From a virus: 24,882 bases of DNA. Both the position numbers and the translations under genes were made by a program. Position 1 is the stretch's first letter. The number at the start of each line of letters is the position of its first letter. The DNA lies in IMG/VR virus record IMGVR_UViG_3300030116_007036, positions 1 through 24,882 of that record; one strand, given 5' to 3'. The notes beneath the pieces were generated by a model. It ran no database searches, was not told where the DNA came from, and saw only the letters and a list, made by a program, of their open reading frames with translations. This document shows positions 7,717 to 24,882 of the stretch, one piece after another.

Positions 7717-7893
7717 ATGGATACACCCGATCAAGACCTATATTGCATTGCTTTGAGTGAGCTAGAGGTTCACATCATACACAGCCTGGTAAGCCAGCAG
7801 CTAGACAATGCTCACATAGAAAACAAGCGAGTGCTTGAGTCCCTTCTTAACCTGCACAAAACAACCAAGGAACTAACGGATGATCTACATTAG
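7717..7893 (+). CDS. Small helical hypothetical protein
   Basis: A 58-aa product starting MDTPDQDLYCIALSELEVHI. ATG at 7717 is preferred to the in-frame GTG at 7711 because AGGAA sits seven bases upstream. The rest is a single long amphipathic helix with a Leu/Lys pattern (NKRVLESLLNLHKTTKELTD). It overlaps the nuclease gene start by 14 bases. No family is recognised. It opens the replication and recombination module after the terminator. Confidence 0.65.
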   Translation: MDTPDQDLYCIALSELEVHIIHSLVSQQLDNAHIENKRVLESLLNLHKTTKELTDDLH

Positions 7894-8962
7894 GTATGTC
7901 CTAGCCAGACCCGTACTACCCAAGCCACCAAAGATTCTGAGTAGTAGTTCGGCTAGTAGAATCAGCAGTGCAAAGAATCAGGATACTACTGCAGAGCTAT
8001 ACCTTGAGGCACACAGTAACCTGGGCACTGAGCCTAACCCTGAGACGCTTGCCCACCTGCGTGACAGGGATACCTATGCATGGACCCATAGCATTACCTA
8101 CCCAGTAGAAGAGTCGGAAGTAATGCAGATGGGAGAGGAGCTGGGCACCATCACACGGGGCATGCGTATAGCTGACAACGAGGTGCCGCATCGTAACCTG
8201 TGGGCATGCACTCGTCCGAGGTGTGACTGGTCTGACCTGTGCCACGGCAATCCTAGTGGAGACATTGATAACTGGTGGGGTATCTCGACATCAGACTACG
8301 ATGGGCTGAGTAGCTACGTAGTTAGATACCAGGGCAGAGAAGACAAGCTACTTGAGCGTAACAAGCCAGGAAAGATTGTTACTGCTAGTGAGATACGGAA
8401 CTACTTAACCTGCCCACGCAAGTGGTACTTTGAGAATGTTAAGAAGGCAGCACGTAGCGAGAGATCGTATTCACACTATAGCGCCAGATGGAAAGGCAAC
8501 ATGGTTCACAAGTATGCTGAACTAATGGCGCTATCAGATATGAATAAGATTCATCATACAGATATTGGTCCTCAGTGGGACGAGTACCTGCAAGAGTACT
8601 CGGACCAGTTAACAGATGAGGATGAGAAGTCACAGTTAGCTATGGATGCTGTAGCCTGCGAGGCAGTAGCCCTGAAGATGTATAACCTGGCAAGGCAACC
8701 GCTCAACTCTGCACCGCATGTTCTCCAAGTAGAACATGCAGAGCAGAGATTCGCAGCAGTGCTTCCCGGTACAAAGACTTGGATTACATGTCAGCCTGAT
8801 CTGATCTGCAGAGACGGAAACGATATTGTGATTGTGGATTACAAAACTCTAAGCAGTTCTAACTTGGTGCGTGACGCTCAGAACTACAGACACTTGCCAT
8901 CAATGTATCTCTACGCATTGGCGGTAACTAAAGGCTTTGTTGCCAGGAAGGTAGAGCAATGA
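7880..8962 (+). CDS. PD-(D/E)XK RecB/Cas4-like nuclease with permuted Fe-S cysteines
   Basis: A 360-aa product. The nuclease motifs are clear: TCPRKWYF (residues 177-184), NMVHKYAEL (His210), QPDLI (Asp307), VDYKT (Asp320, Lys322) and AQNYRH...SMYLYA (Gln334-Tyr343), as in RecB- and Cas4-like exonucleases. Unusually, the cysteine cluster C110-x4-C115-x5-C121, which normally follows the core and pairs with the CPRK cysteine to hold an Fe-S cluster, lies before it, and the protein ends right after the QxxxY motif. The first 20 residues (MIYIRYVLARPVLPKP) resemble the beta strands that usually follow that motif. Neighbours Sak4-like ATPase, DUF669 and RuvC fit a recombination exonuclease role. 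The start overlaps the previous gene; the end overlaps the ATPase start as ATGA. Confidence 0.85.
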   Translation: MIYIRYVLARPVLPKPPKILSSSSASRISSAKNQDTTAELYLEAHSNLGTEPNPETLAHLRDRDTYAWTHSITYPVEESEVMQMGEELGTITRGMRIADNEVPHRNLWACTRPRCDWSDLCHGNPSGDIDNWWGISTSDYDGLSSYVVRYQGREDKLLERNKPGKIVTASEIRNYLTCPRKWYFENVKKAARSERSYSHYSARWKGNMVHKYAELMALSDMNKIHHTDIGPQWDEYLQEYSDQLTDEDEKSQLAMDAVACEAVALKMYNLARQPLNSAPHVLQVEHAEQRFAAVLPGTKTWITCQPDLICRDGNDIVIVDYKTLSSSNLVRDAQNYRHLPSMYLYALAVTKGFVARKVEQ

Positions 8963-9705
8963 ATCTATTTGAGAAAGTTGACTTTCATAAGACGAAGAAG
9001 GGGAAGATGCTAATGGTGTACGGACCTCCCGGTTCGGGCAAATCTACCTTTGCATCTCTCCTTGCTGCAGAGATGGGGATCAAGCAGGTCAACACAGTAG
9101 TCATCGACTTCGAGGTTGGCATGCGTGATGCGTTGGTGCGTGCTGATTGTCAGAGGACAGAGCTGTACGACCTTTCCGATCCCACCCCTGGGATGGGGGT
9201 GGAGATCGCAAAGTTCCTGCGCTCCCTGAGAAGTAGAGATGAGGTAAAGCTAGTGATCCTCGACACCTTGAGTGAGATGTGTTGGTCACTGCTTCGTGGC
9301 ATCTGCGGAACTAAACAAGCAACGCTGCCAATGTATGGTGAGCGGAAGCGCCAACTCAAGGAGATCCTTGTTGAACTAAGAAACTTAACGAAGTCAGGTA
9401 AGCATGTACTCGTACTTACTCATCAGACTGTAGGCGAAGTTGAAGGACTGCCCGGCTACTATGCACCGGAGGCACCTAAGAACGACCGAGCAGATGTGGT
9501 CGGGCAGTTCGATTTCGTTGGCAGGATGCAAGTCGCAACCAAAGCAGCGGCTGAGTATCTAGGTCTGAACGAGGGAGAACGATTCATTGATTACAGACAG
9601 GATCCTCAACAGGTATCGAAGTGCCGTTTCGATATGGATCCAGAGAAGCCGTACGTGTTTGTCCGCAATGCAGATGATGCACGTATATTTATCAATGCTC
9701 TATAA
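8959..9705 (+). CDS. Sak4-like RecA-fold ATPase / recombinase
   Basis: A 248-aa product with Walker A GPPGSGKST (residues 22-30), Walker B VKLVILDT (residues 97-103), a downstream HVLVLTHQT (residues 149-157) and a helicase-like beta core. The family is the AAA_24/Sak4 group of phage single-strand annealing or RecA-like ATPases, typically encoded next to DUF669 and a PD-(D/E)XK nuclease, as here. It likely mediates homology-directed pairing during replication. ATG overlaps the nuclease stop by four bases. The next gene follows after 11 bases. Confidence 0.85.
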   Translation: MNLFEKVDFHKTKKGKMLMVYGPPGSGKSTFASLLAAEMGIKQVNTVVIDFEVGMRDALVRADCQRTELYDLSDPTPGMGVEIAKFLRSLRSRDEVKLVILDTLSEMCWSLLRGICGTKQATLPMYGERKRQLKEILVELRNLTKSGKHVLVLTHQTVGEVEGLPGYYAPEAPKNDRADVVGQFDFVGRMQVATKAAAEYLGLNEGERFIDYRQDPQQVSKCRFDMDPEKPYVFVRNADDARIFINAL

Positions 9706-9716
9706 GGAGATACACA

Positions 9717-10127
9717 ATGAGCATTTTTGCAGAAGCATTCGAGTCAGCAACTGAAACCCCGTCATATGGCCCACTGCCTGATGGCGATTACGAAGCACAG
9801 TTGATTGAGGTAAACACCTCTGATCATCCTATTACTGGGGTGACTGCAACCAATCTAGAGTATCGCATTACTCAGGGAGACAATGCAGATCGCAGGGTCT
9901 GGGATAACGTGACGCATCGTGATGATACGATGTGGAAGGTAGCTAAGATCTGGAATGCGATGGGGATGAATGGTCAACCTACGGACTGGGCAGAGTTCTC
10001 TCTTAAGCTAAGCCAGCACTGCACTAACAAGCACTTTACGATTACCGTAAAGAACCGTGACTACAATGGTAAGACTTATACCAACGTAACCTCGGTTCGC
10101 TTGAACGAAGAGAAGCCTCCGTTCTGA
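9717..10127 (+). CDS. DUF669 phage protein, probable ssDNA-binding partner
   Basis: A 136-aa product. The sequence PLPDGDYEAQLIEV (about residues 19-32) followed by a beta-rich core with RRVWDNVTHRD and WKVAKIWNAMG is typical of DUF669. These proteins sit beside Sak4-type ATPases and probably act as their ssDNA-binding partners. The last residues NEEKPPF resemble the acidic SSB tip. AAGGAG sits 7 bases before the ATG. The stop overlaps the RuvC-like gene start. Confidence 0.85.
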   Translation: MSIFAEAFESATETPSYGPLPDGDYEAQLIEVNTSDHPITGVTATNLEYRITQGDNADRRVWDNVTHRDDTMWKVAKIWNAMGMNGQPTDWAEFSLKLSQHCTNKHFTITVKNRDYNGKTYTNVTSVRLNEEKPPF

Positions 10128-10678
10128 TGGCTATACTGGGTATTGATCCAGGGTTCTCCAGTCTAGGCACGGCCGTCCTCTCCCTCCAGGGAGGGGGCGG
10201 CTCTGCTCAGACCTTCGATGAAGCAAACGTGTTTCGTACGCAGAAGGATAAGAAGAAGGTACTTGTGTGGGATGACAACGTAAAGAGATGCCAACAGATA
10301 CACACGTACCTCTCCGAACTGTGTGACATAAACAATTTTATTATGTTTGCGATTGAAGCAGAGAGCTGGACACGTATGCCAAGCGACAAGCAACTAGGGC
10401 TGGCACGAGGTGTCATCTACTCAGTTGCTGCATCCTTTGACATTCCTATTGTTCAGATAACAGCGAAGGATGTGAAGCACTTCCTTACTGGCTCAAAGAA
10501 AGCCAGCAAGGAAGATGTTCTTACTGCGCTAACTGAACGTTCTAATCTGGAGAAGAAACTTGTCCACCTACCACGAGGCCAATGGCAACATGCGGCAGAT
10601 GCAGCAGGATGTGCACTCTACGCATGGGAATGCAGCGAACTCTCAAGACTATATCGAAGAACACTCCTCTCTACGTAA
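10127..10678 (+). CDS. RuvC-like Holliday junction resolvase
   Basis: A 183-aa product with a RuvC RNase H-fold signature: GIDPG (residues 5-9, catalytic Asp7), FAIEAES (residues 74-80, Glu77 or Glu79), KDVKHFLTGSKKASKEDV (residues 114-131, junction-contacting region) and QHAADAAGCAL (residues 154-164, His155 and Asp158). It would cut branched DNA that arises in replication and before packaging. The ATG overlaps the DUF669 stop by one base (TGATGG). Its last ~90 bases overlap the helicase gene in a different frame. Confidence 0.88.
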   Translation: MAILGIDPGFSSLGTAVLSLQGGGGSAQTFDEANVFRTQKDKKKVLVWDDNVKRCQQIHTYLSELCDINNFIMFAIEAESWTRMPSDKQLGLARGVIYSVAASFDIPIVQITAKDVKHFLTGSKKASKEDVLTALTERSNLEKKLVHLPRGQWQHAADAAGCALYAWECSELSRLYRRTLLST

Positions 10679-11921
10679 CACTGCAGAACCTGTAGAGAGA
10701 CAGCTATTCAGTAACCTGATTTCATCTATAGATATTAAAGAGTCAGAGTTACAGGGGTTGCGGGTTGATGACTTCTGTACGCATCAGAACCAGCTAGTCT
10801 TCGATGCTATATGCAAATCAATCCACAAGAATAATCACTGCACAATCTACAGTGTGTCTGAGATACTCAGGGAGCAAGGCTCACTATACACAGCGGGTGG
10901 CGAGAACTACCTGATTGAGCTATCCGAAGCAGGTATCGGTCAATCAGATCCCCTCAAGGATCTGATTGCCCACGTAAAGAAGTACTCTCAGCTCAGAAGG
11001 ATTGAGCGTGCAGCACGCATGACATTGCGTGCTGTTGAGGGAGACAGTGTTGACCTAGCTACTGTTCAGCAAGTTACACGTCAGATGCTGCAGCAGATTG
11101 AGAAAGAAAAGAAGAAGCAGCCAAAGACCCTATCTGCATTTGATGGCATCACAAAGAAAGCCGCTGATACATTCAAGCCCGCTATTGTAACAGGCTGGCC
11201 CATCTTAGATGCATCAGTAAAGCTATCACCTGGCAGACTCGCAGTGCTTGGTGCGAGACCTGGCATGGGTAAGACCACACTTGCTACGCAGTTGTCAGCA
11301 CAGGTCCTGAAACATAATCGTGAAAGTCATGTGCTTTATTGCAGCGTAGAAATGGACGTAGCAGAAATCGGAGTAAAGGCACTGTCTGCATTATCTAAGA
11401 CAGATTGTGTTACTCCGTTTCAGAATGACAACCAGGAAGCAATAGATTTAGTCAACACCAGGGCTGGACATTACTCGCAGATATTGAGTAGACTTGCTGT
11501 CTTTTACGGTACCCGTCTCGATGAGCTAATCAACATCGCAAACTATCTGCACAAGGAAGTACCACTGAAGCTAGTGGTATGTGACTTCATCAGCAGTATG
11601 TCTCCTGGTGACAAGTACGGAACCAGGAGTGAGGCTATTGGGCATGTATCAAAAGCACTGAAGCAGCTAGCACGGGATCTACAAATCCCGGTGCTAGCCT
11701 GCTCTCAGCTTAACAGAGGAACCGGAGCTAACAGGGCACCAACTATGAAAGACCTGCGTGACTCAGGTGAGATTGAACAGGACGCTGACATCATCATGCT
11801 CCTGCACAAAGAAGATCCCGAGGATGATAGGACCCTTCTTATGATCGAGAAGAACAGGTTCGGAACCAACACTGTCCTGCATCTCGATACTCAGTTCCAG
11901 CATCATAGATTCTCTTTCTAA
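10590..11921 (+). CDS. dnaB: DnaB-like replicative helicase
   Basis: A 443-aa product from the ATG at 10590. A TTG at 10560 or a later start at 10599 is possible; no strong ribosome-binding site decides. The N-terminal domain begins near PVERQLFSNLI. The C-terminal RecA-like domain has Walker A GARPGMGKTT (about residues 221-230), YCSVEMD with the conserved Glu, Walker B LVVCDFIS, CSQLNRG (H3), SGEIEQDADIIMLLH (H4), and KNRFGTN with the arginine finger. This is a hexameric 5'-3' helicase that opens the replication fork. No primase domain is fused to it and none is seen nearby. Confidence 0.92.
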   Translation: MRQMQQDVHSTHGNAANSQDYIEEHSSLRNTAEPVERQLFSNLISSIDIKESELQGLRVDDFCTHQNQLVFDAICKSIHKNNHCTIYSVSEILREQGSLYTAGGENYLIELSEAGIGQSDPLKDLIAHVKKYSQLRRIERAARMTLRAVEGDSVDLATVQQVTRQMLQQIEKEKKKQPKTLSAFDGITKKAADTFKPAIVTGWPILDASVKLSPGRLAVLGARPGMGKTTLATQLSAQVLKHNRESHVLYCSVEMDVAEIGVKALSALSKTDCVTPFQNDNQEAIDLVNTRAGHYSQILSRLAVFYGTRLDELINIANYLHKEVPLKLVVCDFISSMSPGDKYGTRSEAIGHVSKALKQLARDLQIPVLACSQLNRGTGANRAPTMKDLRDSGEIEQDADIIMLLHKEDPEDDRTLLMIEKNRFGTNTVLHLDTQFQHHRFSF

Positions 11922-12000: not shown

Positions 12001-12705
12001 TTAACGCAACATAGACCCACGTCCCCGCATCATATCCTTGAACCTGTCAAGCATAGATCGAGATGCACCTCCACGTCCTTTCTCCTTGGAGATACGAGCA
12101 CGGTTCTCAACATCCCTTTTACGCTCCTCAGCGGTCTGAGGCACAGTGCCACGACCAGCAGGAAAACTAAGTCCACGTCTCTTGGTCTCAACCTTCGGAG
12201 TCTTGCCTGCCTGCTTCTTTGGCGTCTTACTGGTTTTAGGCGTTTTGTCTGCGGGATTTTCAGTTTTCTCGCCCGCTTCCTCGTTCTCCTTCATTGCCTC
12301 GGCGACATTCTTTGCAGCTTTTTGCCTTACAAAAGGCTTGGTCCCACGAATGTTTAACATGGCTCCGGCACGGATTTTATTGGCATCCTTAATCCCTTTC
12401 CCTGTCTTGGGATTATATGGATTCAATGCCATCAACTTGCTGACTGTAGTGCCCAGTCTCTTGGCAATACCAGAAAGGGTATCACCACGACGGATGCGAT
12501 AGGTGTTACCTGATGGCATTGGAGCATCACTTCGTTTCTTACCTAGCTGAGCACGCAACCTGCCAGATTTGCCACGAACAAACTTAAAACGCTTGCGTTT
12601 CTTTCCAGCTTTCTTTGACTCAGCAACTCCGATGCGACCGGACTCCTTCATCCGCTCCTCAACTAGTTTGTCTATCTTGCGAGTAGGTGTTTCTTTGCGA
12701 GCCAT
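12001..12705 (-). CDS. LysM-domain basic protein
   Basis: A 234-aa product with a very basic first 60 residues, a LysM at about residues 69-119 (YRIRRGDTLSGIAKRLGTTV, then LMALNPYNP and IRAGAMLNI), and a Lys/Thr/Pro-rich tail. LysM binds peptidoglycan or other GlcNAc polymers. No enzyme domain accompanies it, so the protein may target lysis factors or be virion-associated. The start is in a TAATG overlap with the 59-aa gene. It is the last gene of the late block, facing the helicase gene. Confidence 0.85.
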   Translation of the reverse strand: MARKETPTRKIDKLVEERMKESGRIGVAESKKAGKKRKRFKFVRGKSGRLRAQLGKKRSDAPMPSGNTYRIRRGDTLSGIAKRLGTTVSKLMALNPYNPKTGKGIKDANKIRAGAMLNIRGTKPFVRQKAAKNVAEAMKENEEAGEKTENPADKTPKTSKTPKKQAGKTPKVETKRRGLSFPAGRGTVPQTAEERKRDVENRARISKEKGRGGASRSMLDRFKDMMRGRGSMLR

Positions 12706-13699: not shown

Positions 13700-14002
13700 C
13701 TACTCCGGACTAAACCAAGTTAAACTATAGGAACCAGTATTAGCAGCAGCATGAACCTTGATCACAGCTCCTGGACCAACAGCAAACTCAAGCGAAGCAC
13801 CTGGCTCAACCAGAATCCCATGAGGATGAGAGCCACCCATCGCAACACCTGTTCCCACATTGATGTTAATCGGCCCCTTGTTACTAATGACAACATAGGT
13901 CCCGTAAACCTCAAGAGCATCGCTATAAGTATTGTTGGGCGTTGCTGTTTCAGGAACAGAAACAGTTCGAGAGTTCCACATTGGAACAGTAAGGTTATTC
14001 AT
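13700..14002 (-). CDS. Beta-rich small protein, possible decoration or tail component
   Basis: A 100-aa product. Start at 14002 (MNNLTVPMWNSRTVSVPETA) is preferred over 14014 because GAGGAA lies just before it. The sequence is rich in beta-forming, Gly-containing stretches: VYGTYVVISNKGPININVG, GILVEPGASLEFAVGPGAVI. Composition resembles small phage capsid-decoration or tail-surface proteins, but I cannot name a family. It follows the LamG protein and a 71-aa protein, which supports a virion surface role. Confidence 0.7.
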   Translation of the reverse strand: MNNLTVPMWNSRTVSVPETATPNNTYSDALEVYGTYVVISNKGPININVGTGVAMGGSHPHGILVEPGASLEFAVGPGAVIKVHAAANTGSYSLTWFSPE

Positions 14003-14210
14003 TTGGTTCCTCATTCCATTCAGGCTTTGCTACTTCCTCAAGTGCTTCAGCATGTGTTAACTGTGTACACCCAGTTGGAACCGGGTCTAGTTGCGTTAGT
14101 CGCTTAGTGAGACCTTTGTCATCCGATGACAGCCGCACCCAAGGCGTTTCCGTGATAGCCTCTATAGCATCCTTCGGGCCAAGGTAATAATAATGAACCG
14201 GATAACTCAT
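13995..14210 (-). CDS. Small hypothetical protein
   Basis: A 71-aa product starting MSYPVHYYYLGPKDAIEAIT. Contains a Trp-Val-Arg-Leu strand (TPWVRLSSDDK) and ends in an acidic EEPNE. The start overlaps the LamG stop by four bases (ATGA) and the end overlaps the next gene by eight. No family is recognised. Its position suggests it belongs to the tail or host-contact group. Confidence 0.65.
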   Translation of the reverse strand: MSYPVHYYYLGPKDAIEAITETPWVRLSSDDKGLTKRLTQLDPVPTGCTQLTHAEALEEVAKPEWNEEPNE

Positions 14211-15205
14211 CCGTTCCTGCCGATCACAATACCTGCATTGCGAGCAATCTCATCAATCGTAAGGTGCCTGGTCCACGCTCTAAACGTGTCTATCTCACCT
14301 TGAGCAAAGTTGTTTATATTGGCAGCAGTACCAATCCAGTAAACACGTTGTGTGACATCAGCGAGATTTCGCCTTGGCGGATAGTCGAAAGTAATAGTGC
14401 CGGTGCCAGTATAATTAGATCCAAGCATACTGGTATCACCAAAGCTAAAGGTGTCTGCACTTAACCTTGTAATTGGAAGCGTTTGCCCATTTAGCATGGT
14501 GCCATACGGGCCGGAAGCTAAACCTGAGAATGTTACAAACATATTGCTAGATAAGTTGTGACCAGTGCAAGTAACTACTCCTGGGTTAGCAGCAGTAATA
14601 CCAGTGATTGTTCTGGTTTGATTTTTTGTAGTAAGTATCTCGGAGCCATCTTTATAAAGGGTGACATGGCCGTTTGTTGGCCCATTTGTTATGGTGTAAT
14701 TTACAGCAAGGTGAGTCCACTTATCTGCTTCAATGTTTACACCAGATGCAAACTGCAATGACTGACTAAAATTTTGTACATTCAAGCCCATGTCGCCGCC
14801 GTCAGACCTAGGGCTAACTACTGTATGGTAGCCTCCATATCTTCTAGCTGCATTAACAGCAGTTGGTCTGACTGCTACTTCAAAGCATCTGTTTGTGATA
14901 AACATACCCCCGCCTAAATCTTCATACCCATTCAGCGGATTCGTTGCGAAGTTAGAGTATTTATATAGCGCAGCGCCACCGCCATCTACTCCTTGTCCTG
15001 TACCGCAGAAATCGCCAACACCATCAAAGTTTGGCCAGTCCCCAGCGGACATGTGCATAATACCAAAGTCAATATCAACACCAGTTAGGTTCGCCAGGTT
15101 GTACCATCTGAGGTTGTCACTATCCCCAGATGCACGCTCAAAACGCAGACCCAGATTGCCATTAGTCAGAGGACGTTTACGATTTAAACTGCGACGCCTA
15201 GCCAT
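14207..15205 (-). CDS. LamG/concanavalin-like protein with inserted FCCH-like domain
   Basis: A 332-aa product. Start at 15205 (MARRRSLNRKRPL) is preferred to the longer in-frame start at 15262, which would overlap the endolysin by 65 bases. A LamG-type carbohydrate- or protein-binding fold begins around residue 108 (CFEVAVRP), includes KWTHLAVNYT (162-171) and TLYKDGSEIL (182-191), and resumes at YWIGTAANINNFAQGEIDTF (about 289-308). Between them, residues ~198-273 (ITGITAANPGVVTCTGHNL; LNGQTLPITRLSADTFSF) look like the FCCH-type insert seen in phage tail fibres. Likely a virion surface or receptor-binding protein. Confidence 0.78.
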   Translation of the reverse strand: MARRRSLNRKRPLTNGNLGLRFERASGDSDNLRWYNLANLTGVDIDFGIMHMSAGDWPNFDGVGDFCGTGQGVDGGGAALYKYSNFATNPLNGYEDLGGGMFITNRCFEVAVRPTAVNAARRYGGYHTVVSPRSDGGDMGLNVQNFSQSLQFASGVNIEADKWTHLAVNYTITNGPTNGHVTLYKDGSEILTTKNQTRTITGITAANPGVVTCTGHNLSSNMFVTFSGLASGPYGTMLNGQTLPITRLSADTFSFGDTSMLGSNYTGTGTITFDYPPRRNLADVTQRVYWIGTAANINNFAQGEIDTFRAWTRHLTIDEIARNAGIVIGRNG

Positions 15206-15584
15206 TCCAACGAGCCTTCTTGGGACGGATGTCATAATGCACAAATGTATTGTACAATCCAAGTCCGCCTTCAGGAATGCGCTTGGAACTTACTAGGTCC
15301 TCAATAGCTGCATGCAACTGTTGAGGCTTCATGCCTTTAGCCTGCAAGTCAGCAGCAGTTCCCAGCTTATGCTGCGAATGAGTAGAACCACCCACATTTT
15401 TATTGTGTTCCTCGCAACGGTAAGAAGAAGTAATCTTAATCGGGACATTAACAAGGTCCCTCACCTGCTGCAGCACCCAGGCTAGGTGCCTGGTTGCTGC
15501 CTTGTTCGGGGGCATACCTAGGCATGTGCCACACTTGCAGTAGAACTCACGAGGTCTGAAGTTTCGAGGATACCCGTCGTTCAC
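15198..15584 (-). CDS. Endolysin: peptidase M15 family
   Basis: A 128-aa product with the M15 zinc motif SQHKLGTAAD (His72, Asp79) and a second metal ligand in FVHYDIRP (His116), plus N-terminal FYCKCGTC resembling the CKCG of M15_3-type proteins. It would cut D-Ala containing cross-bridges or termini in peptidoglycan, helping lysis or, if virion-borne, entry. It starts at GTG in a GTGA overlap with the 42-aa gene. There is no signal peptide, so a holin would be needed; a holin-like gene lies downstream in the same block. Confidence 0.88.
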   Translation of the reverse strand: MNDGYPRNFRPREFYCKCGTCLGMPPNKAATRHLAWVLQQVRDLVNVPIKITSSYRCEEHNKNVGGSTHSQHKLGTAADLQAKGMKPQQLHAAIEDLVSSKRIPEGGLGLYNTFVHYDIRPKKARWNG

Positions 15585-15709
15585 TTCTTCTTCTTTGCTG
15601 GCGCCTTGCGCTTTGCCTTTGGCTTAGCTTCAGGCTCAGGAACTTCAACCTCAATCTCAACAGGTCGAGCGGCTGGGCCAACATAAATGATTTTCTTTTC
15701 GGTAGCCAT
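15581..15709 (-). CDS. Small Lys/Pro-rich protein
   Basis: A 42-aa product: MATEKKIIYVGPAARPVEIE, then an acidic Pro-rich part and a Lys/Ala/Pro tail (KAKRKAPAKKKK). The start is in a TAATG overlap with the giant gene's stop; its own stop overlaps the endolysin start. It may be a small DNA-binding or virion protein; no family is recognised. Confidence 0.65.
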   Translation of the reverse strand: MATEKKIIYVGPAARPVEIEVEVPEPEAKPKAKRKAPAKKKK

Positions 15710-18700
15710 TAGTCTGCATATCTCCCCACGTTAACGTATCTGCCAGGTTTGATTCTTCTGTATTGAAGTATCTTTTTCTGTCTTTCAATCTCGCTGCTAA
15801 GTTCGTTAATCTGATTCTGTATAGAAAGCGCCTTACCAGGATCACTAGTTCTATATATCATTTTGGCTTCACTTTTAAGTGAATCAAGTCTGTCTTGCAT
15901 TGTCTTGGTAAACTTATCTACAAACTTCATTTCCTTCTTAGTCATGTTTACCTTTTTAAATCCACCAAACACACGCTGAATAACCATCTTCCCTATTGGA
16001 ACTGCGTTAGTGTAATCACCATCAGAAAATGGGCTGCTAAACTTAAGAGGCGAGTATTTAAATGTTGGGCTTGTTGGGCCACCGGCAGCAAGCAAGCCAT
16101 AGCCAAGCTGAGCTGGAGTACCACCAATAAAAGCAGCACTAGCCTTTACGAGATATTCAGTAAGACCAGGCTCTTTAAATCCATACTGCTTAGCACCCTG
16201 CCCCATCATTAACATTTCACTAATAACGTTGCCCGTAATGAGAGATATATCGAGTGCTTCCTTCATGCCGACCTTAAGAAAGCCAGACTCAAATGCCTTA
16301 TTAAGCCTCTTGACTTCTTCTGTCGGCTCGATGCCCATTGCCTTATAGGCAGCATCAGTTAGCCCACCAGCGCTTTTGAGACCGATCATCAATGTCTGAA
16401 GAGCAGGAGCAAGGCTGTTCATATTTCTTGCGCTAGACACCCAAGAGTAACCAGCATCATTGGAGTCATATACAACATTGTTACCAAGGGTAAATGTACC
16501 AGGACCAGTCTCATTAACCTGTCCATTGTAAACATCAATATCACTAGCAACACCCTTAAGAGAGTTCATGTAGGCAATAGCACGCAAGGCCCTCAAGGCT
16601 TGCGTGCCTACATGTGCAGGTGAGATAGAGTTACCACTCATCGGCGTGTAGGTGTTATCATCAAAGAATATAGCCGAAAGGATTCCACGTTTACCTGGCA
16701 AGGGAACCATTTTGTATGACCAGGTTGGAAACCAGCTAAACAAACTACCAAGAGTATTAGCTCTAAGAACAGGGATTATTGCACCAACATCAGCTAAGTA
16801 GTTAGGAATAAGACGATAGGCATTTCGCTCTGCAGCAATAGCCATATACCTATCAATTTGCTTTTGGCTTAATGGCTTGCCTTCTTCTAAGTACCACCTG
16901 CCATTCTTGTCTCTGTTTAAAACTATCTTACTATTTAAACTTTGCTCTAGCTGAATGGAGGTAACATCTTTGTTATTCATGTGACCATCCATTACTTTGA
17001 AGTGATGTTCATAGAGAGCTAGCTTCCCGCCTGCATCACCAAAGTTATAACCAGTACGAGCACCACGCTCTATTGCATCAACAGCCCTCTTCGATGGCTT
17101 AGCCCAGTACTTACCACCAAAGTATTCGTTTATATAACTACCAACAGCAGCAAGGCGAGGACTGCCAACAGATGAAAACGCATCAGCCATATCGGGCAGC
17201 TCTGAAAGCTGAGCTAACTCTGCCTGGGCAAGGTCACTCCCTTCAAGTTGAAGGTTTTCTAATTGATCATAAGCACGCTTGGTTTGATCATCGATTTTAA
17301 TTTGACCAGAACGATATGCCTTGGATGAAGCTCCACCTCGTTTTAGTTTGCGATACTTAGCTAGGCGTATAACACTTGTTACAGTTTGTATTACAGTATC
17401 CATAGGCATGTTGCCAAAGTACATGCTCATTGTGCCTACATTAGAAAAGTAATTACCCTGCTGAGTAGGTAGATTCCAAACAGTCATCTTACCCTTACTG
17501 TTAAGAACCATGCGCTCAAGCAAACTACGGCTAACAAATCTTTGATTACTCCAACCAAACGAGTTGTTCATACCCGGAGTAACTTTAAACTTCCAAACAG
17601 CAGGCAGTGCCTTCTGCCTAATATCTGCAGATGTTTTGAATATGGGATCCTGAGAGTTAACAAACATTTCCTGAACAACAGGGGATAGACTGGCAGCCGA
17701 ACCTTTTGTTCTGCCACCAGAAACACCAGGAAAGAAACCCAGCTCTAGGTTCTCGCCAATACCGTTAAGAGTTTTTAACTGAGGCACTTCACGAGCAAGA
17801 AGCCCATTGTCACCAAATATCTTAGTTGTATCAGCCAGTGTAAGCTGAGTTCCATACTTCTCTTTAAGTACACTATCTAAGTGACCAGCAAGCTTTTTTC
17901 TGTTGCTTGGATCTAAGATGTAAGAAGCAAGCTGAGCGCCGTCTAGATTACCGGGTAGGCTATTAGGGATAGAGCGATCATCAATAACACGGCGCTCAAC
18001 AATTTTCTTAGCTGCATCCTCAAGAGTAAGGTTGTTAAATCTTTGCTCAACACGACTCCAGATAACCTCATTGTATCCAGTAGTTTTTCCGGGGCGCTGA
18101 ACATTCTGCCGGTATATAGGTTGCCTGTCTTTGACTGCATCTAAGTGCTCATCAAAGAAGTACCGAAGGTGATAGTTAAACATGCCCTTATAAAAACCAG
18201 CTCGACCAGCTTCTGCAGAAATAACAGAAGCAAGGTTTTTAATAGCATCCCTTGCAATCTGCTGAGCCACGGTAAGCCCATCTGCATCAGGGTTGTTCAT
18301 TTCCTTGCGAAGAGTATCTCTAACAGCACGAGCCATATCGACCTTGCGGCCATTAGATAGCTTTAATGTCCCAGGGATTCTAGCAACAAGGCCCCCCTGC
18401 ATTCCAATAGGAGCAAGCAACGGAAGCCTGTATTGATCTAGGTGATTTAATACTTCTTTTACAAACTTGTAATAAACTGTCCTGTTAGTCTTGGGGTTTA
18501 AACCAGAAGCCTCAAGTGCCTTAGTTGCAATGTCTTTTGCTATAGCATTTTGCAGTTTCTCGCTGGCAAGTATAGACCAGCCAAAACCCGCAGCGTCCTG
18601 AATAGCACGAACAGCTCCGTATACTTTAGGACCAGTGCCACGCTCACGAACAATGCCAAGTCCTTTAAGAATATCCTTCATCTGACCAAGCACTTCAGAA

Positions 18701-21700
18701 ATGTAAATATCTGTTGGCCTCCTCAGAAAAGTAGAGAATCCTTGCCCATCTTTAGAAGGCTTAAGCTCAGGCAGAAGAACAGATGCAAAGTCATACGTAG
18801 GGTTGGTATTATCAGGGCGGGTGCCGGCGGGCACAGCCGCACCGCCCTGGTGCATCTCTGTCTCCTGATCAACAAGAGTATTAGTTGCTTCCTGCTTCTG
18901 TTCCTCTGTTAGATTCTTAGATTTATTAATAGCAGCCTTCTGCTTTTCAATACCAAGAGGAGTTTCTGGTATTAAATTAGCACTGCTCTTTGGAGGAACA
19001 GCTTTATCAACTGCAGACTTCGCTACCCTAGCAGCACGCTTATACGCAGAGGGGGGCAACTCTGGTCCTTGGAGCGGACCAAGCATGCTAGTATTTGCAA
19101 TAGCACGATCAGCGATATTAGCAGCCTGTACATCTGAAAGATAAACAACTGGCTCCTTGGGATCTGCAAACTCAAGTCCGAGACTTTTAGCCTCCTTGGT
19201 AATAGCAGCCAGCTCATCTTTAGTAAGAAACTGACTAACACCAAACTCCTTAGCAGGTGCAGAGTCAGGGCCATATGTTTCAGCCAGACTCCTTGCATAA
19301 GCCTTGCTGACCTCAACAGGCACATTCTCTGGGCCATACTGTTTTACTGCAGCATCAAAGACATTGTGATTAGCATATACGTTTGGGTTATTGCTAATAA
19401 GCTGGGCATAGGTAGCACTCTCAGCAGCAGGCTGTTTGTCCTTACTAAAGCCTTTAGCAAAGTCTTTAATATCTCCAACAATACCATCAAGTGCAATATC
19501 ATCAGCAGCATAACGTGATAAAGCAACATCACGCTTTTGTTGCTCTCGGACACTAGAGGTGTGCTCCTTAACTCTTTCGGGAAAAGACTTAACAACCTCA
19601 CCTTCTCGCCTGACCTTAGCAACAATAGGCTTCCTTGCGGGTGTCGGCTCAGCCCGTTTAGGCTTTGGCCTTTTAGGGCCAGGAAGTTTTTTTCTGCCAG
19701 GTATAAAGGTTTCTTTAGGGACAACGGTTTGCCTAGGAACAGGCCCCTGCAATCCAGCAGAAAGAACATCCTTTACCTTGGCACGGTCATTAAAAACCCT
19801 ATTGCCAGCAACATTAATCGTACGAATATTATTATCTGCTACAAACTTTGAGAACTGCTTTGGTGTTGGATTTTCAATGTAAGGTTTATTGTGCTTGCTG
19901 GCAAAGTTTCTAGTCATCCTTGTGCCAGGAGAGTTTGTGTCTACTGCAAATACAACAGTCCCATCACTATCAATAACATTCTGTTCTGTACGCTGGCGAT
20001 AGCCAGGAGTCTTAGACTCCTTAAGATTAAACCTTGTACGCAAAGTAAAGTCAGCACCGTCTCTAGTCCTAAATCCTTTTGGTGCAGTACCACCTGTCTT
20101 AATGCCAAGCTCACGTGCTACCTCTAGGCCCAGCTTATCTGCACCTACCTGGCCGCCGCTAATAACCTTTTCAATCCTAGCAGCAGGCTCTCTAACCTTG
20201 CCCTGCCCAATAACTTCTCTAGGAGTTGCAGCAGAGGTAGATACAGGGGCTGGTTTACTTGTTCCTTCTTTAGCAAAATCACCCCCATACTTTTCGCTCA
20301 TGCGCTCAGATTCGGTTAATTTCCTTGCACTAGGAGAATCATAGTACCTTGTAGGTATTTTTTTTGTTGGAGCAGTAACGATAGCGGGATCAATAGGAAT
20401 GTCCTGAGTTCTAGCTAGTCCACGCTCAGCAAGCTTTCGTGCAATAAAGCCATCAGGTTTAATAGCACCAGTCTCACTAACTTCTGTTTTTAAAGTAGGG
20501 TTAGTTCGAGACTTACTTCTCTTAGAAATAATCCCCAGCTCTCTAAGCTGATCGATAACACTGTTTCGCTCAAGTCGAAGCTGCTGTTTTACCAGATCAT
20601 TTAAAACCAAAGACCTTTTGTCTAATGCTGACAGGTTGGCAAAGTCTGTTTCACTATCAATACCAAGTTCAGCAAGACGCTTTCTTCCCTGGCTAGTTAG
20701 TCCATCATAAAGACTAAGTGCGGTATCCGGGGCATCAATCTGCTGGCGTATCTGATCAGTAACAGTTCGTACATATGCCTCATCGGCTTTAGGGCCACGA
20801 ATAGTAATAGCCCCTGCTTGTACAGGTGCAGCCTCTCCACCCTCATCGATGGCAGCAAGCACATCTTTAGTTGGAATGTTCTCTTTAGTAAGTGCATCTC
20901 TAGAAAGAGAATCAAGTCTATCGGTAAGAACATCCCTGACAGCAGGGTCACGCTCTGTCTTTAGCCTGCGGACGATTAGCGTTAGCTTAGCTAATGAACC
21001 AGGAACAGTAGCTAAGAGTTTATCAACAGCAGCAATAGCGGTTGCATCTAAAGAACGAACAGTGCCCTCTTCGCCTTTAACAAAAGCAATAACTGCAGCT
21101 TTAAGGTTTTTCTTTTCGGGCAGGCTTTCTCTAACAGCCTTAAGAGACATGCCTCTATACATAGCAAATGCTTTTAGTTCCGGTACGTTCATGCCCTCGA
21201 TCTGATCAAGAACCTTTTGCCTCTCTTCCGCTAAGCGCTTAACAGTTTCTGTCTGGTCAACAGGGGGTTCTTTCTGAATACCAAGTTCTCTGGCCCTAGC
21301 TCCTATAGGCCTTTCGGATATGCCTAGCTCAGACATCTTAATAACAGCAATAGGCGCTGCAGGTGTATAACCCTTTGCAAGCTGAACGTTGCCGCCATCG
21401 CCTACATTGCCGAGATCCTTACGCCGAAATACAACAACATAATTACCATACCCTGCTTCAGTAAACGGAGTTGCCGAAACACCGCCAGCATCTAACTTGC
21501 CAGCATTAACAATATCAAAAGACGATGCCTCATCTGTAGTATGGAAAAGATAGTCCTCTGTTTTTTGGTTCCTAATATCATCTATTAGCTGATCTCTTTG
21601 AGGCTCCTTAAGAAACTCTGGCTTGTCTCTATCTAACCAAGTTCTACTGGCCTCACGCTCCCGCATAGCCTGACGAACTTCTGTTTGTGTTGCTTGCTTA

Positions 21701-23739
21701 GGTGGTGCAGCCTCGGGAGCAGGGGCATCAGCATCCCTGGGCCTAACACGAGTAATAGGAATGGGTTGCTCCATTCCTTCTACATATACAGAGATGCCAG
21801 CCTTATCCTTAACTACAGCCCTTACAGCAGATGGAGTGCCTGGATTCCCCTCGGCATCAACAAAGTTAATAGTCTCGCCCACAACGGGCTCTGGAGGCGG
21901 AGCAACAGTTTCATCTAGCGCCTCTTCGAATCGAGTCTTTCTAGCCTCTGGGGTGATCTCCGCTTGGCGCACAGAAGCAGCAGCATCTTTTCTAGATACT
22001 GGGGTAGCTCTTTGTGCTGTTGTAGCTCTTGAAATAACTTCCGGCGTTACGGCCTCTGATATTTTAGCTGCAGCAGAATCGATAGAAGACCTGCCAGCAA
22101 CAACATCACTAGCCAACTGCCTGGCAATCTGCTCCTGCTCAGGTGTTAACTGCCTAAAGTAATTGATAAAGTTAGTAGCCATAAACGTGCTCATGGCATT
22201 GTAGGTTTTGTTATTTAACCCACCGCCATGAAACTGTTTAAGCAAAGCAATGAATGCACCAGCTTCAGGCACACCAGCCATTAGTCCGTAGAATGCAGCA
22301 GCCGTAAACTCAGCAGCAACCTGACCACGAGTCTTGGTAGAAAGCAGTGAGTCTTTAACTACAAAGTCACTAGCTTTCTTAGGTTTCTTATCCTTAAAGA
22401 GTTGCGCCATCGCATTGATAACTTGAGGGCGATATTCTTTTATGGGGATATTTGTAAGAGGAACAGTAGCCTCTTTGTCGAATCCAATTTTCTTTGCAAC
22501 AGCAGCCTTGGCCTTTGAAACAAGGCCAACTGCTGCTGCTGCCTTGGGTGACAACTCAACAAGCTGATCTACTAAACCGGCAGTCTTGCCACCCTTAGCA
22601 CGAACAGCCTTAGCAAGCTGAAAGCCCAGGAAGCCAATCATTGCAGTATCTAAGGGCCGGGCTCTAATCATCCCAGCAGGGTCGTCATCAATAGCTTTAA
22701 TCATAGCCCTAAAGCCATAACCAAGGCTTTTGCCAATACCAACACCCGACTTAATTCTGTCTTCAATTATGTCAGGAAATATAGACTCGACTAAACCAAA
22801 GTCTATACCTGCATCCCTAATTAAGCGCTCGTATTCATCATCAGGAACAGCAGCAATAATTTGCTTTATAAGATGCCAACTACCCTGATTTAACTCAACA
22901 AAGTTATCGATAAGCAGTTCGCCACGGCCCTTGTCCTTAGACTCCCTAATAGACTTTTTAAAATGACTAAGTGTTTGTACAAATGGATCTACCGAAAAAG
23001 GTTCAGCGCTTTCGTTTAAATAGTTGCGGCTTCGGTTTAAGCTGTTTTTTTCTTCTGTGGTTAACTCATCATACGGATCATCAAGAACACGATGCTCTCT
23101 AATGAGAGTCCTTGCGCTCTTAGCAAATGGGCCCATGCGCCTAGAAATAGCCCGACCTACTAAGGTAAGAGTTTTTTCATTATCACCAAGTTGCGAAAAC
23201 AAATGAGCACGCTTGTCAATATGCGCCTTAACCCAAAGCCCCTCGTCTAATTTAGACTCAGGATTATCTTTCTTCCAACGACGAAACGCAGTGCGAAGCT
23301 TTCGCTCCATGTTTCCAAACTCATCTGCGACAAGAACATCATTGTTAAGAGCCTCGGAGTAAGCACGCTTAGCAACACTTGGCTCTACAAAACCATAAAG
23401 CATTCCAGCCTTAATTGCTGATGTCCCAATAATTGGTGTTAGCAATACCTGAGATGCATCATAAGCAAACTCAGAGCCCAGAAGGGTTTTAGGCCCTTCT
23501 GGCTCTGGTTGCTGAGGCTGTCTAGGTTGAGCAGGTTGCTCGGGCTGCATTTGTTGAACAGGCTGCTGAGGCTGCTGAGGTTGCCGCTGCTCTTGCACAG
23601 GAGCAGGTTGCTGGAGTTCTGCTTCTCTCTCCTCAGCAAGCTCTCTAAGTCTATCCAAACCAGATCCAGCAGGAAGAGCGAACTGATTTTCTCTTTCATT
23701 AGCTAACTCTGCTAAACGCTCAAGGCCACTGCGGTTCAT
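15709..23739 (-). CDS. Giant 2676-aa protein with SLOG/MoCo-carrier domain, probable ejected or polyvalent virion protein
   Basis: The largest ORF here, uninterrupted for 2676 codons. Visible parts: a tandem N-terminal repeat (SGLERLAELANERE at 4-17; SGLDRLRELAEERE at 26-39); a Gln/Pro-rich spacer (42-82); a possible ADP-ribosyltransferase-like segment around 725-815 (LFHTTDEASSFD, GGVSATPF); a clear putative molybdenum-carrier/SLOG-type domain around 1190-1315 (VISGGQVGADKLGLEVAREL, GGTAPKGFR, YRQRTEQNVIDSDGTVVF, IRTINVAGNR); and a long C-terminal half with conserved-looking motifs (NSFGWSNQRFVSRSLLERM at ~2060; SLFSWFPTWSYKMVPLPG at ~2330). Many domains on one phage polypeptide is typical of polyvalent proteins and podophage internal virion proteins delivered with DNA. 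No strong ribosome-binding site precedes it, so coupling to the upstream gene is likely. Confidence 0.82.
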   Translation of the reverse strand: MNRSGLERLAELANERENQFALPAGSGLDRLRELAEEREAELQQPAPVQEQRQPQQPQQPVQQMQPEQPAQPRQPQQPEPEGPKTLLGSEFAYDASQVLLTPIIGTSAIKAGMLYGFVEPSVAKRAYSEALNNDVLVADEFGNMERKLRTAFRRWKKDNPESKLDEGLWVKAHIDKRAHLFSQLGDNEKTLTLVGRAISRRMGPFAKSARTLIREHRVLDDPYDELTTEEKNSLNRSRNYLNESAEPFSVDPFVQTLSHFKKSIRESKDKGRGELLIDNFVELNQGSWHLIKQIIAAVPDDEYERLIRDAGIDFGLVESIFPDIIEDRIKSGVGIGKSLGYGFRAMIKAIDDDPAGMIRARPLDTAMIGFLGFQLAKAVRAKGGKTAGLVDQLVELSPKAAAAVGLVSKAKAAVAKKIGFDKEATVPLTNIPIKEYRPQVINAMAQLFKDKKPKKASDFVVKDSLLSTKTRGQVAAEFTAAAFYGLMAGVPEAGAFIALLKQFHGGGLNNKTYNAMSTFMATNFINYFRQLTPEQEQIARQLASDVVAGRSSIDSAAAKISEAVTPEVISRATTAQRATPVSRKDAAASVRQAEITPEARKTRFEEALDETVAPPPEPVVGETINFVDAEGNPGTPSAVRAVVKDKAGISVYVEGMEQPIPITRVRPRDADAPAPEAAPPKQATQTEVRQAMREREASRTWLDRDKPEFLKEPQRDQLIDDIRNQKTEDYLFHTTDEASSFDIVNAGKLDAGGVSATPFTEAGYGNYVVVFRRKDLGNVGDGGNVQLAKGYTPAAPIAVIKMSELGISERPIGARARELGIQKEPPVDQTETVKRLAEERQKVLDQIEGMNVPELKAFAMYRGMSLKAVRESLPEKKNLKAAVIAFVKGEEGTVRSLDATAIAAVDKLLATVPGSLAKLTLIVRRLKTERDPAVRDVLTDRLDSLSRDALTKENIPTKDVLAAIDEGGEAAPVQAGAITIRGPKADEAYVRTVTDQIRQQIDAPDTALSLYDGLTSQGRKRLAELGIDSETDFANLSALDKRSLVLNDLVKQQLRLERNSVIDQLRELGIISKRSKSRTNPTLKTEVSETGAIKPDGFIARKLAERGLARTQDIPIDPAIVTAPTKKIPTRYYDSPSARKLTESERMSEKYGGDFAKEGTSKPAPVSTSAATPREVIGQGKVREPAARIEKVISGGQVGADKLGLEVARELGIKTGGTAPKGFRTRDGADFTLRTRFNLKESKTPGYRQRTEQNVIDSDGTVVFAVDTNSPGTRMTRNFASKHNKPYIENPTPKQFSKFVADNNIRTINVAGNRVFNDRAKVKDVLSAGLQGPVPRQTVVPKETFIPGRKKLPGPKRPKPKRAEPTPARKPIVAKVRREGEVVKSFPERVKEHTSSVREQQKRDVALSRYAADDIALDGIVGDIKDFAKGFSKDKQPAAESATYAQLISNNPNVYANHNVFDAAVKQYGPENVPVEVSKAYARSLAETYGPDSAPAKEFGVSQFLTKDELAAITKEAKSLGLEFADPKEPVVYLSDVQAANIADRAIANTSMLGPLQGPELPPSAYKRAARVAKSAVDKAVPPKSSANLIPETPLGIEKQKAAINKSKNLTEEQKQEATNTLVDQETEMHQGGAAVPAGTRPDNTNPTYDFASVLLPELKPSKDGQGFSTFLRRPTDIYISEVLGQMKDILKGLGIVRERGTGPKVYGAVRAIQDAAGFGWSILASEKLQNAIAKDIATKALEASGLNPKTNRTVYYKFVKEVLNHLDQYRLPLLAPIGMQGGLVARIPGTLKLSNGRKVDMARAVRDTLRKEMNNPDADGLTVAQQIARDAIKNLASVISAEAGRAGFYKGMFNYHLRYFFDEHLDAVKDRQPIYRQNVQRPGKTTGYNEVIWSRVEQRFNNLTLEDAAKKIVERRVIDDRSIPNSLPGNLDGAQLASYILDPSNRKKLAGHLDSVLKEKYGTQLTLADTTKIFGDNGLLAREVPQLKTLNGIGENLELGFFPGVSGGRTKGSAASLSPVVQEMFVNSQDPIFKTSADIRQKALPAVWKFKVTPGMNNSFGWSNQRFVSRSLLERMVLNSKGKMTVWNLPTQQGNYFSNVGTMSMYFGNMPMDTVIQTVTSVIRLAKYRKLKRGGASSKAYRSGQIKIDDQTKRAYDQLENLQLEGSDLAQAELAQLSELPDMADAFSSVGSPRLAAVGSYINEYFGGKYWAKPSKRAVDAIERGARTGYNFGDAGGKLALYEHHFKVMDGHMNNKDVTSIQLEQSLNSKIVLNRDKNGRWYLEEGKPLSQKQIDRYMAIAAERNAYRLIPNYLADVGAIIPVLRANTLGSLFSWFPTWSYKMVPLPGKRGILSAIFFDDNTYTPMSGNSISPAHVGTQALRALRAIAYMNSLKGVASDIDVYNGQVNETGPGTFTLGNNVVYDSNDAGYSWVSSARNMNSLAPALQTLMIGLKSAGGLTDAAYKAMGIEPTEEVKRLNKAFESGFLKVGMKEALDISLITGNVISEMLMMGQGAKQYGFKEPGLTEYLVKASAAFIGGTPAQLGYGLLAAGGPTSPTFKYSPLKFSSPFSDGDYTNAVPIGKMVIQRVFGGFKKVNMTKKEMKFVDKFTKTMQDRLDSLKSEAKMIYRTSDPGKALSIQNQINELSSEIERQKKILQYRRIKPGRYVNVGRYAD

Positions 23740-23748
23740 AGTTAGATA

Positions 23749-24846
23749 TTAGTTTCTATTTGTCTTAAGATAGATACCGATTGCGTTGCTTCTTCTGCGA
23801 GTATCAGCTTCATCAAAGAACTTTTTATCCATGATCTCCGTATAAAGAGCGCCCAGGTTGTTGTAACTACCTCGCTCTATGCCTGTAAGAAGATCAGTTA
23901 TCTTAGCAATCTTTGCAGTTATCTTTGTAACTTCTTCGCGTTCCTCGTCTGATTGCTCTGTGGGACCTCTTAGATTTACCTCGGCAACCTTAGCAATTAG
24001 CGAAGCAACAGCACCTTGAGACTCATCAATAATACCCTTAGCAGCAAGAGCAGGAGGAGTTTGTCCTAAATCAAAGTTCCTACTAAGAACCTTTTCTGCT
24101 TGTACTCTTGCTCGATTATAGTTTTCTATAATTGCAATTGCCATTCCCTCTACTGATTCATTGTAGCCAGGATCTCCCGCTTTAGGCATTGTTCTAAACT
24201 GATCAGGACTAATACCACCATTTCTAAAGACAGACGTAAGAAGGCTGAACTTTGCCTTTTTTGCTTCTACACTGTCTCCATGTATAGAATTGGTAGGATT
24301 ATTATATTGATCAATAAGCCCAATAAGAGTGTCACTTGGATTTAAGAAAGAGGTAGATACTTCAGGAATCTTAAATGGAATCTTTCCTCTATAAGCCGAC
24401 CTTGCTTTTTGCCTAAGTCCCTGAGACGCCTTTCGGGCTTCTTTTCTTTGCTGAAACTTTAGTCTCTGTAGTGCCAGCCTGTAATTTCTTTCATTGTTGC
24501 GAGCATCCTCAGACAAACGACGCAAAGCTGTTTCGGCATTTGTTTGCTTAACTTCTAGTTCGCCTCTTTCTATCTGGGTCTGATCTGTTCTGCGTTGTGT
24601 CTGAGATTTAACATTTCCTACATCAGCCAGTATTTTTTCAAGACCAGAGACATAAGGAGCAAGTTTGGGATCTTTTAATGCAAGCTGTTTAAAAGTAGCA
24701 ACAGCAGCATCAAGTGCCTTAACCGCATTCTCAGATCGAATGCCCTCAACTTCAGCTTCTGCTTTTTCTACACCAGCAATTGCTCCACGAGTTTTAAGCC
24801 GCTGTGCTTCTAGCTCCGCTTGAGTCTGCGGGAACAACGAGGCCAT
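23749..24846 (-). CDS. Coiled-coil virion protein candidate
   Basis: A 365-aa product if it starts at 24846 (MASLFPQTQAELEAQRLKTR); the frame is open upstream to the window edge, so the true start may lie beyond it. Long helical, charged stretches (for example TALRRLSEDARNNERNYRLA and LQRLKFQQRKEARKAS) indicate coiled coils, with a folded middle (NPSDTLIGLIDQYNNPTNS). It ends ten bases before the giant gene. Size and position are like those of internal core partner proteins of podophages, but no family is recognised. Confidence 0.75.
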   Translation of the reverse strand: MASLFPQTQAELEAQRLKTRGAIAGVEKAEAEVEGIRSENAVKALDAAVATFKQLALKDPKLAPYVSGLEKILADVGNVKSQTQRRTDQTQIERGELEVKQTNAETALRRLSEDARNNERNYRLALQRLKFQQRKEARKASQGLRQKARSAYRGKIPFKIPEVSTSFLNPSDTLIGLIDQYNNPTNSIHGDSVEAKKAKFSLLTSVFRNGGISPDQFRTMPKAGDPGYNESVEGMAIAIIENYNRARVQAEKVLSRNFDLGQTPPALAAKGIIDESQGAVASLIAKVAEVNLRGPTEQSDEEREEVTKITAKIAKITDLLTGIERGSYNNLGALYTEIMDKKFFDEADTRRRSNAIGIYLKTNRN

Positions 24847-24882
24847 TAGTTTCTGCTGAGTACCAATCTGCCCTGCATCAGG
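24846..24882 (-). CDS. Possible C-terminal end of an upstream gene (runs off window)
   Basis: A frame ending LMQGRLVLSRN-stop closes as TAATG over the next ATG, the junction style used repeatedly in this genome. Only 11 codons are visible, so this could also be an out-of-frame read if the next gene starts further upstream. Confidence 0.35.
   Translation of the reverse strand, partial: LMQGRLVLSRN

Follow-up and report, generated by a model that had tools for sequence, protein, structure and literature searches.

The window analysed here is the whole of the 24,882-base virus record IMGVR_UViG_3300030116_007036 from IMG/VR, and our subject is the giant gene within it, whose product carries a SLOG-type domain of the cpYpsA family. 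The gene is one uninterrupted open reading frame (ORF), which bears out the extent of 15709-23739 and the length of 2676 amino acids given by the first-pass annotation and places it on the minus strand, which that annotation had left unstated. In the layout below, chassis denotes segments shared with the giants of related (sister) phages, and cassette a domain in the middle of the protein:

15709-23739, minus strand: giant protein, 2676 amino acids, with its ATG at 23739
23494-23616, minus strand: Gln/Pro-rich linker, residues ~42-82, seen in the translation
21937-22566, minus strand: N-terminal chassis segment, residues 392-601, matched by a hidden Markov model (HMM) of sister N-termini (E 1.9e-6)
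21232-21621, minus strand: ADP-ribosyltransferase (ART)-like cassette, residues 707-836, with an invariant FHTT motif, assigned from identity to L187 and L197 and a weak AlphaFold2 model
19792-20172, minus strand: cpYpsA/SLOG domain, residues 1190-1316, matched by PF12694 and PDB 3imk, motifs intact
16408-17598, minus strand: C-terminal chassis segment, residues 2048-2444, matched by an HMM of sister C-termini (E 1.7e-25)

The first-pass annotation had also proposed the SLOG domain from its motifs and had called for a profile search, which upholds both the identity and the motifs. PF12694 (cpYpsA) matches residues 1192-1316 with E 1.1e-28 and a score of 100.2 bits (cut-off 26.2), and a direct search of the record with this family gave E 1.9e-32 and 106.3 bits, with no match among 14 control genomes; the match is not due to chance. 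The motifs lie in the giant as SGGQVGAD (1194-1201), PKGF (1220-1223), YRQRTEQNVIDSDGT (1247-1261) and NVAGNR (1309-1314). The closest solved structure is 3imk (E 2.1e-14 with the whole protein as query and 3.5e-16 with the domain alone), which is titled 'putative molybdenum carrier protein', MoCo carrier being the former name of the Pfam cpYpsA family. A PHROGs family of unknown function covers part of the cpYpsA stretch (E 4.9e-7), and no significant Pfam, PHROGs or NCBIfam family was found in the giant beyond this domain.

We aligned 160 SLOG domains, namely that of the window, 80 from phages and 79 of 80 from cellular genomes (one, in a 37-residue ORF, was dropped). The window copy keeps the invariant or near-invariant residues I1193-S-G-G-Q1197, G1199, D1201, G1216-G1217, R1250, T1251, N1254, T1261, G1272, T1276, N1309, A1311 and G1312. 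The pocket motifs SGGQxGxD, RT..N, SD.T and N.AG.R (at 1194-1201, 1250-1254, 1258-1261 and 1309-1314 of the giant) are invariant or nearly so across 22 giant, 49 small phage and 79 cellular copies; for SGGQ this invariance is partly built in, because SGGQ stood in one of the two search patterns used for each collection scan, and RT..N, T1261 and N.AG were absent from those patterns. Departures from the consensus fall at laxer sites, V1198 (T), R1226 (E), F1237 (Y) and I1308 (L), and F at position 1237 is the commonest residue among giants.

Relatives of the domain are encoded at 240 places in the viral contigs and number 411 in the bacterial and archaeal genomes, and the best 80 of each were kept. 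The domain lies in ORFs of at least 1800 amino acids, some running off the locus, at 22 of the 80 phage loci, and in ORFs of at most 467 amino acids at 79 of the 80 cellular ones, fractions that are not population estimates because both sets were picked by similarity to the window's domain. These SLOG giants cluster near the window's domain, making up 15 of the first 18 ranked rows (L007-L024) against 7 of the other 62. On the SLOG tree the label 'giant' requires 11 changes, compared with a mean of 21.7 after shuffling (none of 500 shuffles was as low), and four of the five rows closest to the window are giants, the fifth being a 1042-residue ORF; we claim no single origin for the SLOG giants, because no strongly supported set in the tree surrounds the window. 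A phrog_156 portal is present in 8 of the 22 SLOG-giant records, on the strand of the giant in all eight. When ten neighbours of SLOG giants were compared with PHROGs, eight had no match, a 647-residue protein in L012 fell into a tape-measure family and a 524-residue protein in L007 into a family of unknown function. The sole very long ORF among the 80 cellular loci is that of L257, a Rhizonema sp. contig (2065 amino acids, open at its start). Two phage loci are unusual in layout: L015:2-20380 is a single frame open over the whole 20-kb locus (6,793 codons, both ends open) with SLOG mid-way, and in L005:2857-3384, from Pseudomonas phage vB_PpS_SYP, the SLOG halves are permuted, the RT/NVAGN part lying ahead of SGGQTGAD, unlike the window.

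The window begins within a virion operon of short-tailed-phage type, and its end is overlapped by another IMG/VR contig, L087 (90.6% DNA identity over 406 bases), in which a portal gene (phrog_156, E 2.5e-38) is followed by genes for proteins of 224, 903, 201, 263, 549 and 243 amino acids and then by the gene that enters the window. The 903-residue protein has a virion-structural match (phrog_3287, E 6e-8). The genes flanking the giant within the window are:

23749-24882, minus strand: gene directly upstream of the giant, its 3' 377 codons, open at the window end (L087 10001-10406 matches 24882-24477); by position a candidate second ejection protein
15198-15584, minus strand: M15 peptidase/endolysin, downstream of the giant (PF08291 E 6.5e-21, phrog_894 E 6.2e-34)
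14207-15262, minus strand: LamG-like lectin, virion or adhesion candidate (PF13385 E 6.5e-10)
13700-14014, minus strand: 104-residue protein (p104) with homologues downstream of sister giants

A portal alignment yielded 80 loci, and 22 sister records (L002 and 21 of those loci) were taken further; PF12236 as a portal finder gave one weak match in these 22. Only the portal is named by match, 'adaptor' and 'nozzle' being labels by order and size. The sister order is a nozzle-like gene, p201, p263, p549, a gene for ~200-300 amino acids, one for ~550-950 and the giant. Ten sister records hold a giant of at least 1500 amino acids (measured stop to stop: 3295 twice, 2917, 3014, 2886, 3131, 2882 with an open end, 2835, 3234 and 1520), and homologues of the M15 peptidase and of p104 lie downstream in 6 of the 10 each, the L180 and L185 records stopping at or within the giant. 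In phage T7 the order gp14-gp15-gp16 places two smaller proteins and then a large one past the tail proteins. The giant resembles gp16 in this respect, since it stands third after two smaller genes and past portal, adaptor and nozzle, both in L087 joined to the window and in the 10 sister records. Microbacterium phage Shocker has genes for 244, 417 and 1743 amino acids followed by an endolysin, and Cellulosimicrobium phage DS1 is similar. Shocker gp37 was tried as a homologue of the giant and rejected (best BLASTP E 0.40; chassis HMMs E 0.078 and 2.3), so that the parallel is positional only.

Both ends of the sister giants are conserved, and the middle varies. HMMs were built from seven sister C-termini and six N-termini, in records selected for their related portals without regard to any resemblance to the window giant, and both models match the window giant, at residues 2048-2444 and 392-601 respectively. 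They gave nothing significant in Shocker, L183 or L184, and the 1181-residue ORF of L184 showed no similarity. The window giant sequence itself matched 3 of the 22 sister records, G019 in the ART-like stretch and G007 and G018 in C-terminal stretches. With the whole giant or its C-terminal part as query, no close relatives were found in the viral-contig collection (viral_contigs), and tblastn with the C-terminal part returned only E 3-9 in phages and nothing at E <= 1 in plasmids. cpYpsA was found in none of the 22 sister records, several of which are fragments without a giant.

The middles of these giants carry changing cassettes. The ART-like cassette of the window is 57% identical to the giant of G019/L187 and 38% identical to L197, where it lies within a 1699-residue ORF; used as query, it found nothing in phages and, in viral_contigs, only G019's record and L197. 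Across the three sequences H733 is invariant and position 804 is acidic (E/E/D), a second catalytic position not being assignable. Searching the window record with ART-PolyVal (PF18760) gave nothing at E <= 10. In VIA-align, the model of the cassette reached a best Z of 6.1, a value below 8 that can reflect a common arrangement, and 50 of the 50 listed rows are of ART fold. A comparison of L179 with L187 at first suggests that the cassette is a clean insertion, but in their pairwise alignment the unalignable part of the middle is wider than the cassette, and we therefore term the site a variable region. The sister giants L187 and L180 have a NADAR-like cassette that is absent from the window giant (PF08719 E 8.7e-5 and 5e-4, neither reaching the curated cut-off; E 5.9e-5 against the YbiA structure 2b3w), and L186 lacks it despite an identity to L180 of ~50-75% along most of the protein. 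L179 carries DUF7831 at residues ~1338-1447 (PF25176 E 6.2e-40) and L185 a P-loop kinase/zeta-toxin-like domain at residues ~1710-1800 (AAA_33 E 2.1e-6); Pfam scans of the middle regions of L177, L181 and L182 brought up no convincing match.

A NADAR-like profile built solely from two SLOG-free sister giants matches 9 of the 22 SLOG giants (L024, L038, L027, L028, L072, L055, L065, L068 and L011; E 4.6e-9 to 1.3e-55), with no match in L007 (E 0.43) and none on reversed sequences; weak matches occur in two small ORFs of other SLOG loci (L066, L082). When near-copies are merged (L027/L028 at 81%, L055/L065/L068 at 91-92%, L017/L020 at 97% identity), the NADAR-like domain is found in about 6 of 18 SLOG giants. 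The two domains adjoin in L024, L038 and L011, and SLOG is nested between NADAR-like halves in L027 (residues 2976-3272 of ORF L027:848-13681) and L028 (residues 2982-3280 of ORF L028:827-13681). The DUF7831 of L179 recurs in the SLOG/NADAR giants L027, L028 and L072, ahead of NADAR in L072, and may belong to the same ADP-ribose theme. Among the giants examined, an ART-like profile was significant only in the window and L187. Five SLOG giants besides that of the window were scanned in Pfam (L018, L011, L007, L008 and L013): L007 has an LPD38-like C-terminus (E 1.9e-5, slightly under the cut-off), and L008 and L013 showed nothing besides SLOG. The same scan placed a GNAT acetyltransferase near SLOG in L018 (residues 1415-1475) and a PD-(D/E)XK-like stretch near SLOG in L011 (residues 760-868). 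SLOG domains are predicted to act on ADP-ribose derivatives, a role in which they are experimentally uncharacterised, and fusions of SLOG to Macro and NADAR have been reported (PMC9503650), whereas NADARs, one phage NADAR included, hydrolyse ADP-ribosyl-guanosine (PMC11125620). The SLOG/NADAR pairing hints at what cpYpsA domains act on, in a way that can be tested.

Several bacterial antiphage systems are set off by signals derived from NAD+, cyclic ADP-ribose among them, and to our knowledge the known phage counters to such signals are all made once infection is under way. We favour, as moderately probable, the reading that the giant is an ejection protein whose conserved chassis bears interchangeable effectors related to NAD+ and ADP-ribose, among which SLOG acts on an ADP-ribose signal. 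The observations that it joins are the domain identities, the operon position, the common ends, the changing middles and the SLOG-NADAR association. On this model the giant would be an internal virion protein of a short-tailed phage and would occupy the T7 gp16 place, third behind two smaller proteins. Its N- and C-terminal chassis would be packaged and may help to make or cross an envelope channel, while the exchangeable effector domains of the middle would enter the host with the DNA and fold after ejection. Such effectors would be SLOG and the ART-like domain in the window phage and ART-like, NADAR-like, DUF7831 or kinase-like domains in the sisters. SLOG would most likely bind an NAD+-derived ADP-ribose signal, for example cyclic ADP-ribose from TIR-type defences, and perhaps cleave it at the N-glycosidic bond, the alarm being blunted ahead of phage gene expression; the ART-like domain would probably alter a host target. 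Most simply, then, the phage would come preloaded to interfere with immunity based on NAD+. If this is true, a signal binder or hydrolase within the ejection machinery would act from the very start of infection. The sister phages, in which the chassis is constant and the cassette differs, offer an experimental handle. A wider proposal, which we offer tentatively and regard as possible though short of probable, is that this class of ejection protein is an exchangeable chassis on which every phage carries in a combination of SLOG, NADAR-like and ART-like domains of its own, to disarm NAD+-based immunity before any transcription, the nested SLOG-NADAR arrangement of some members being a composite signal-destroying unit.

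The first-pass annotation had suspected more effector domains in the giant, and the ART-like cassette at 707-836 (on a weak model) together with the other cassettes of the sisters fits that suspicion. It had also described a polyvalent-type protein acting just after injection; the virion-operon position and the chassis/cassette pattern strengthen this part short of proof, and several results weigh against it and against the favoured reading as a whole. No LPD domain was found in the giant by Pfam and LPD38 searches (LPD38 was silent in the control genomes too); LPD-type accessory domains are common in polyvalent proteins and not obligatory. Neither Pfam nor the PDB gave a convincing match for the chassis, sequence comparison linked it to none of the solved ejection proteins, and its fold could not be modelled, the AlphaFold2 model of the C-terminal segment being poor (mean predicted local distance difference test score, pLDDT, 43.8). 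The ART-like cassette is without a Pfam match, and its model, from three sequences, is weak (pLDDT 64; predicted template modelling score 0.57), with a best Foldseek E of 0.16, the 12 best rows all being of ADP-ribosyltransferase fold. The window sequence around residue 1190 has no detectable counterpart in the sister giants, so that SLOG may have been either gained or lost. Packaging and ejection are deduced from the virion-operon position, and catalysis, target and SLOG ligand of the giant are predictions. Set beside the 2 to 15 domains given for polyvalent proteins in the abstract of Iyer et al. 2017 (PMC5512222), the giant has SLOG as a certain domain and the ART-like one on a weak model.

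The main competing explanation is that SLOG is a ligand-gated switch within the ejection protein. On reaching the host it would detect a nucleotide there and thereby govern either release or the ART-like domain, instead of disarming a defence signal. SLOG domains can serve as non-catalytic sensors (PMC9503650), and here an ART-like domain shares the polypeptide; however, SLOG and ART-like domains are not a co-occurring unit, SLOG pairing with NADAR-like domains instead, and we consider the switch unlikely. Alternatively, the giant may stay out of the virion and be made late in the cell, to act at lysis, say, or against superinfection; the short distance from its gene to the endolysin gene downstream speaks for this. 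Yet the giant lies within a contiguous structural operon in the sister records reaching that far, and the virion RNA polymerase of N4-like phages, of ~3,500 residues, is a precedent for ejection of so large a protein (PMC12633501), which makes late action in the cell distinctly improbable. A genuine role in carrying the molybdenum cofactor, suggested by the former name of the family and the title of 3imk, is very improbable, since that title is an annotation and not a test, Pfam now describes a cpYpsA SLOG family, and the partners are NADAR-like and ART-like; no sign of cofactor binding was met, although no search was aimed at it. An assembly artefact behind the long ORF or the SLOG fusion might be suspected in a single metagenomic record whose giant has no close relative in viral_contigs, but single sister ORFs of up to 3295 amino acids at the same place, and the location of 22 of the 80 phage SLOG domains in ORFs of 1800 amino acids or more, reduce its chances to next to nothing.

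Elsewhere in the window, a replication/recombination block on the plus strand (7880-11921) comprises a PD-(D/E)XK nuclease, a Sak4-like ATPase, DUF669, a RuvC-like protein and a DnaB-like helicase, the RuvC-like and DnaB-like ORFs overlapping. The minus strand encodes a 234-residue protein with a LysM domain at 12001-12705 (PF01476 E 1.4e-10) and, at 1622-2827, a 401-residue protein with an Hc1 histone-like C-terminus (PF07432 E 9.7e-11) past a Ser/Gly-rich stretch.

Large polyvalent virion proteins with ARTs (PMC5512222) and phage SLOG-NADAR/Macro fusions (PMC9503650) are already known. In the literature searched (few subscription papers, and no supplements or figures) we met no description of an ejection-type giant that contains cpYpsA, of ADP-ribose cassettes exchanged on a common chassis, or of a SLOG domain lying within NADAR. 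Polyvalent proteins resemble the giant in being very large and multidomain, in their virion context and in their host-directed enzyme domains, which include ARTs, in one podovirus protein next to an N4-like RNA polymerase (PMC5512222). They differ in that the words SLOG, NADAR and MoCo are absent from the main text of that paper, and the giants differ in turn by cassettes that vary among sister phages, a common chassis and a fixed operon position. The viral NAD+-ADP-ribose network (PMC9503650) is alike in its superfamilies, SLOG, NADAR and ART, and in a predicted role against ADP-ribose signals. Viral SLOG is typically standalone there, and the packaged domains named in the abstract are ARTs, Macro, NADAR and Nudix, not SLOG, whereas the window SLOG lies in a putative ejection protein and that of two relatives inside a NADAR-like domain. 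Mosaic domain swapping has been reported for gp15/gp16, and gp16-like homologues have 609-1337 residues (PMC8954989), compared with 2676 in the window and up to 3295 in the sisters. Finally, Thoeris ThsA likewise contains SLOG and belongs to an antiphage setting based on NAD+, but it is a host defence protein with a SLOG of STALD type (PMC7272460), whereas the window carries cpYpsA in a phage protein.

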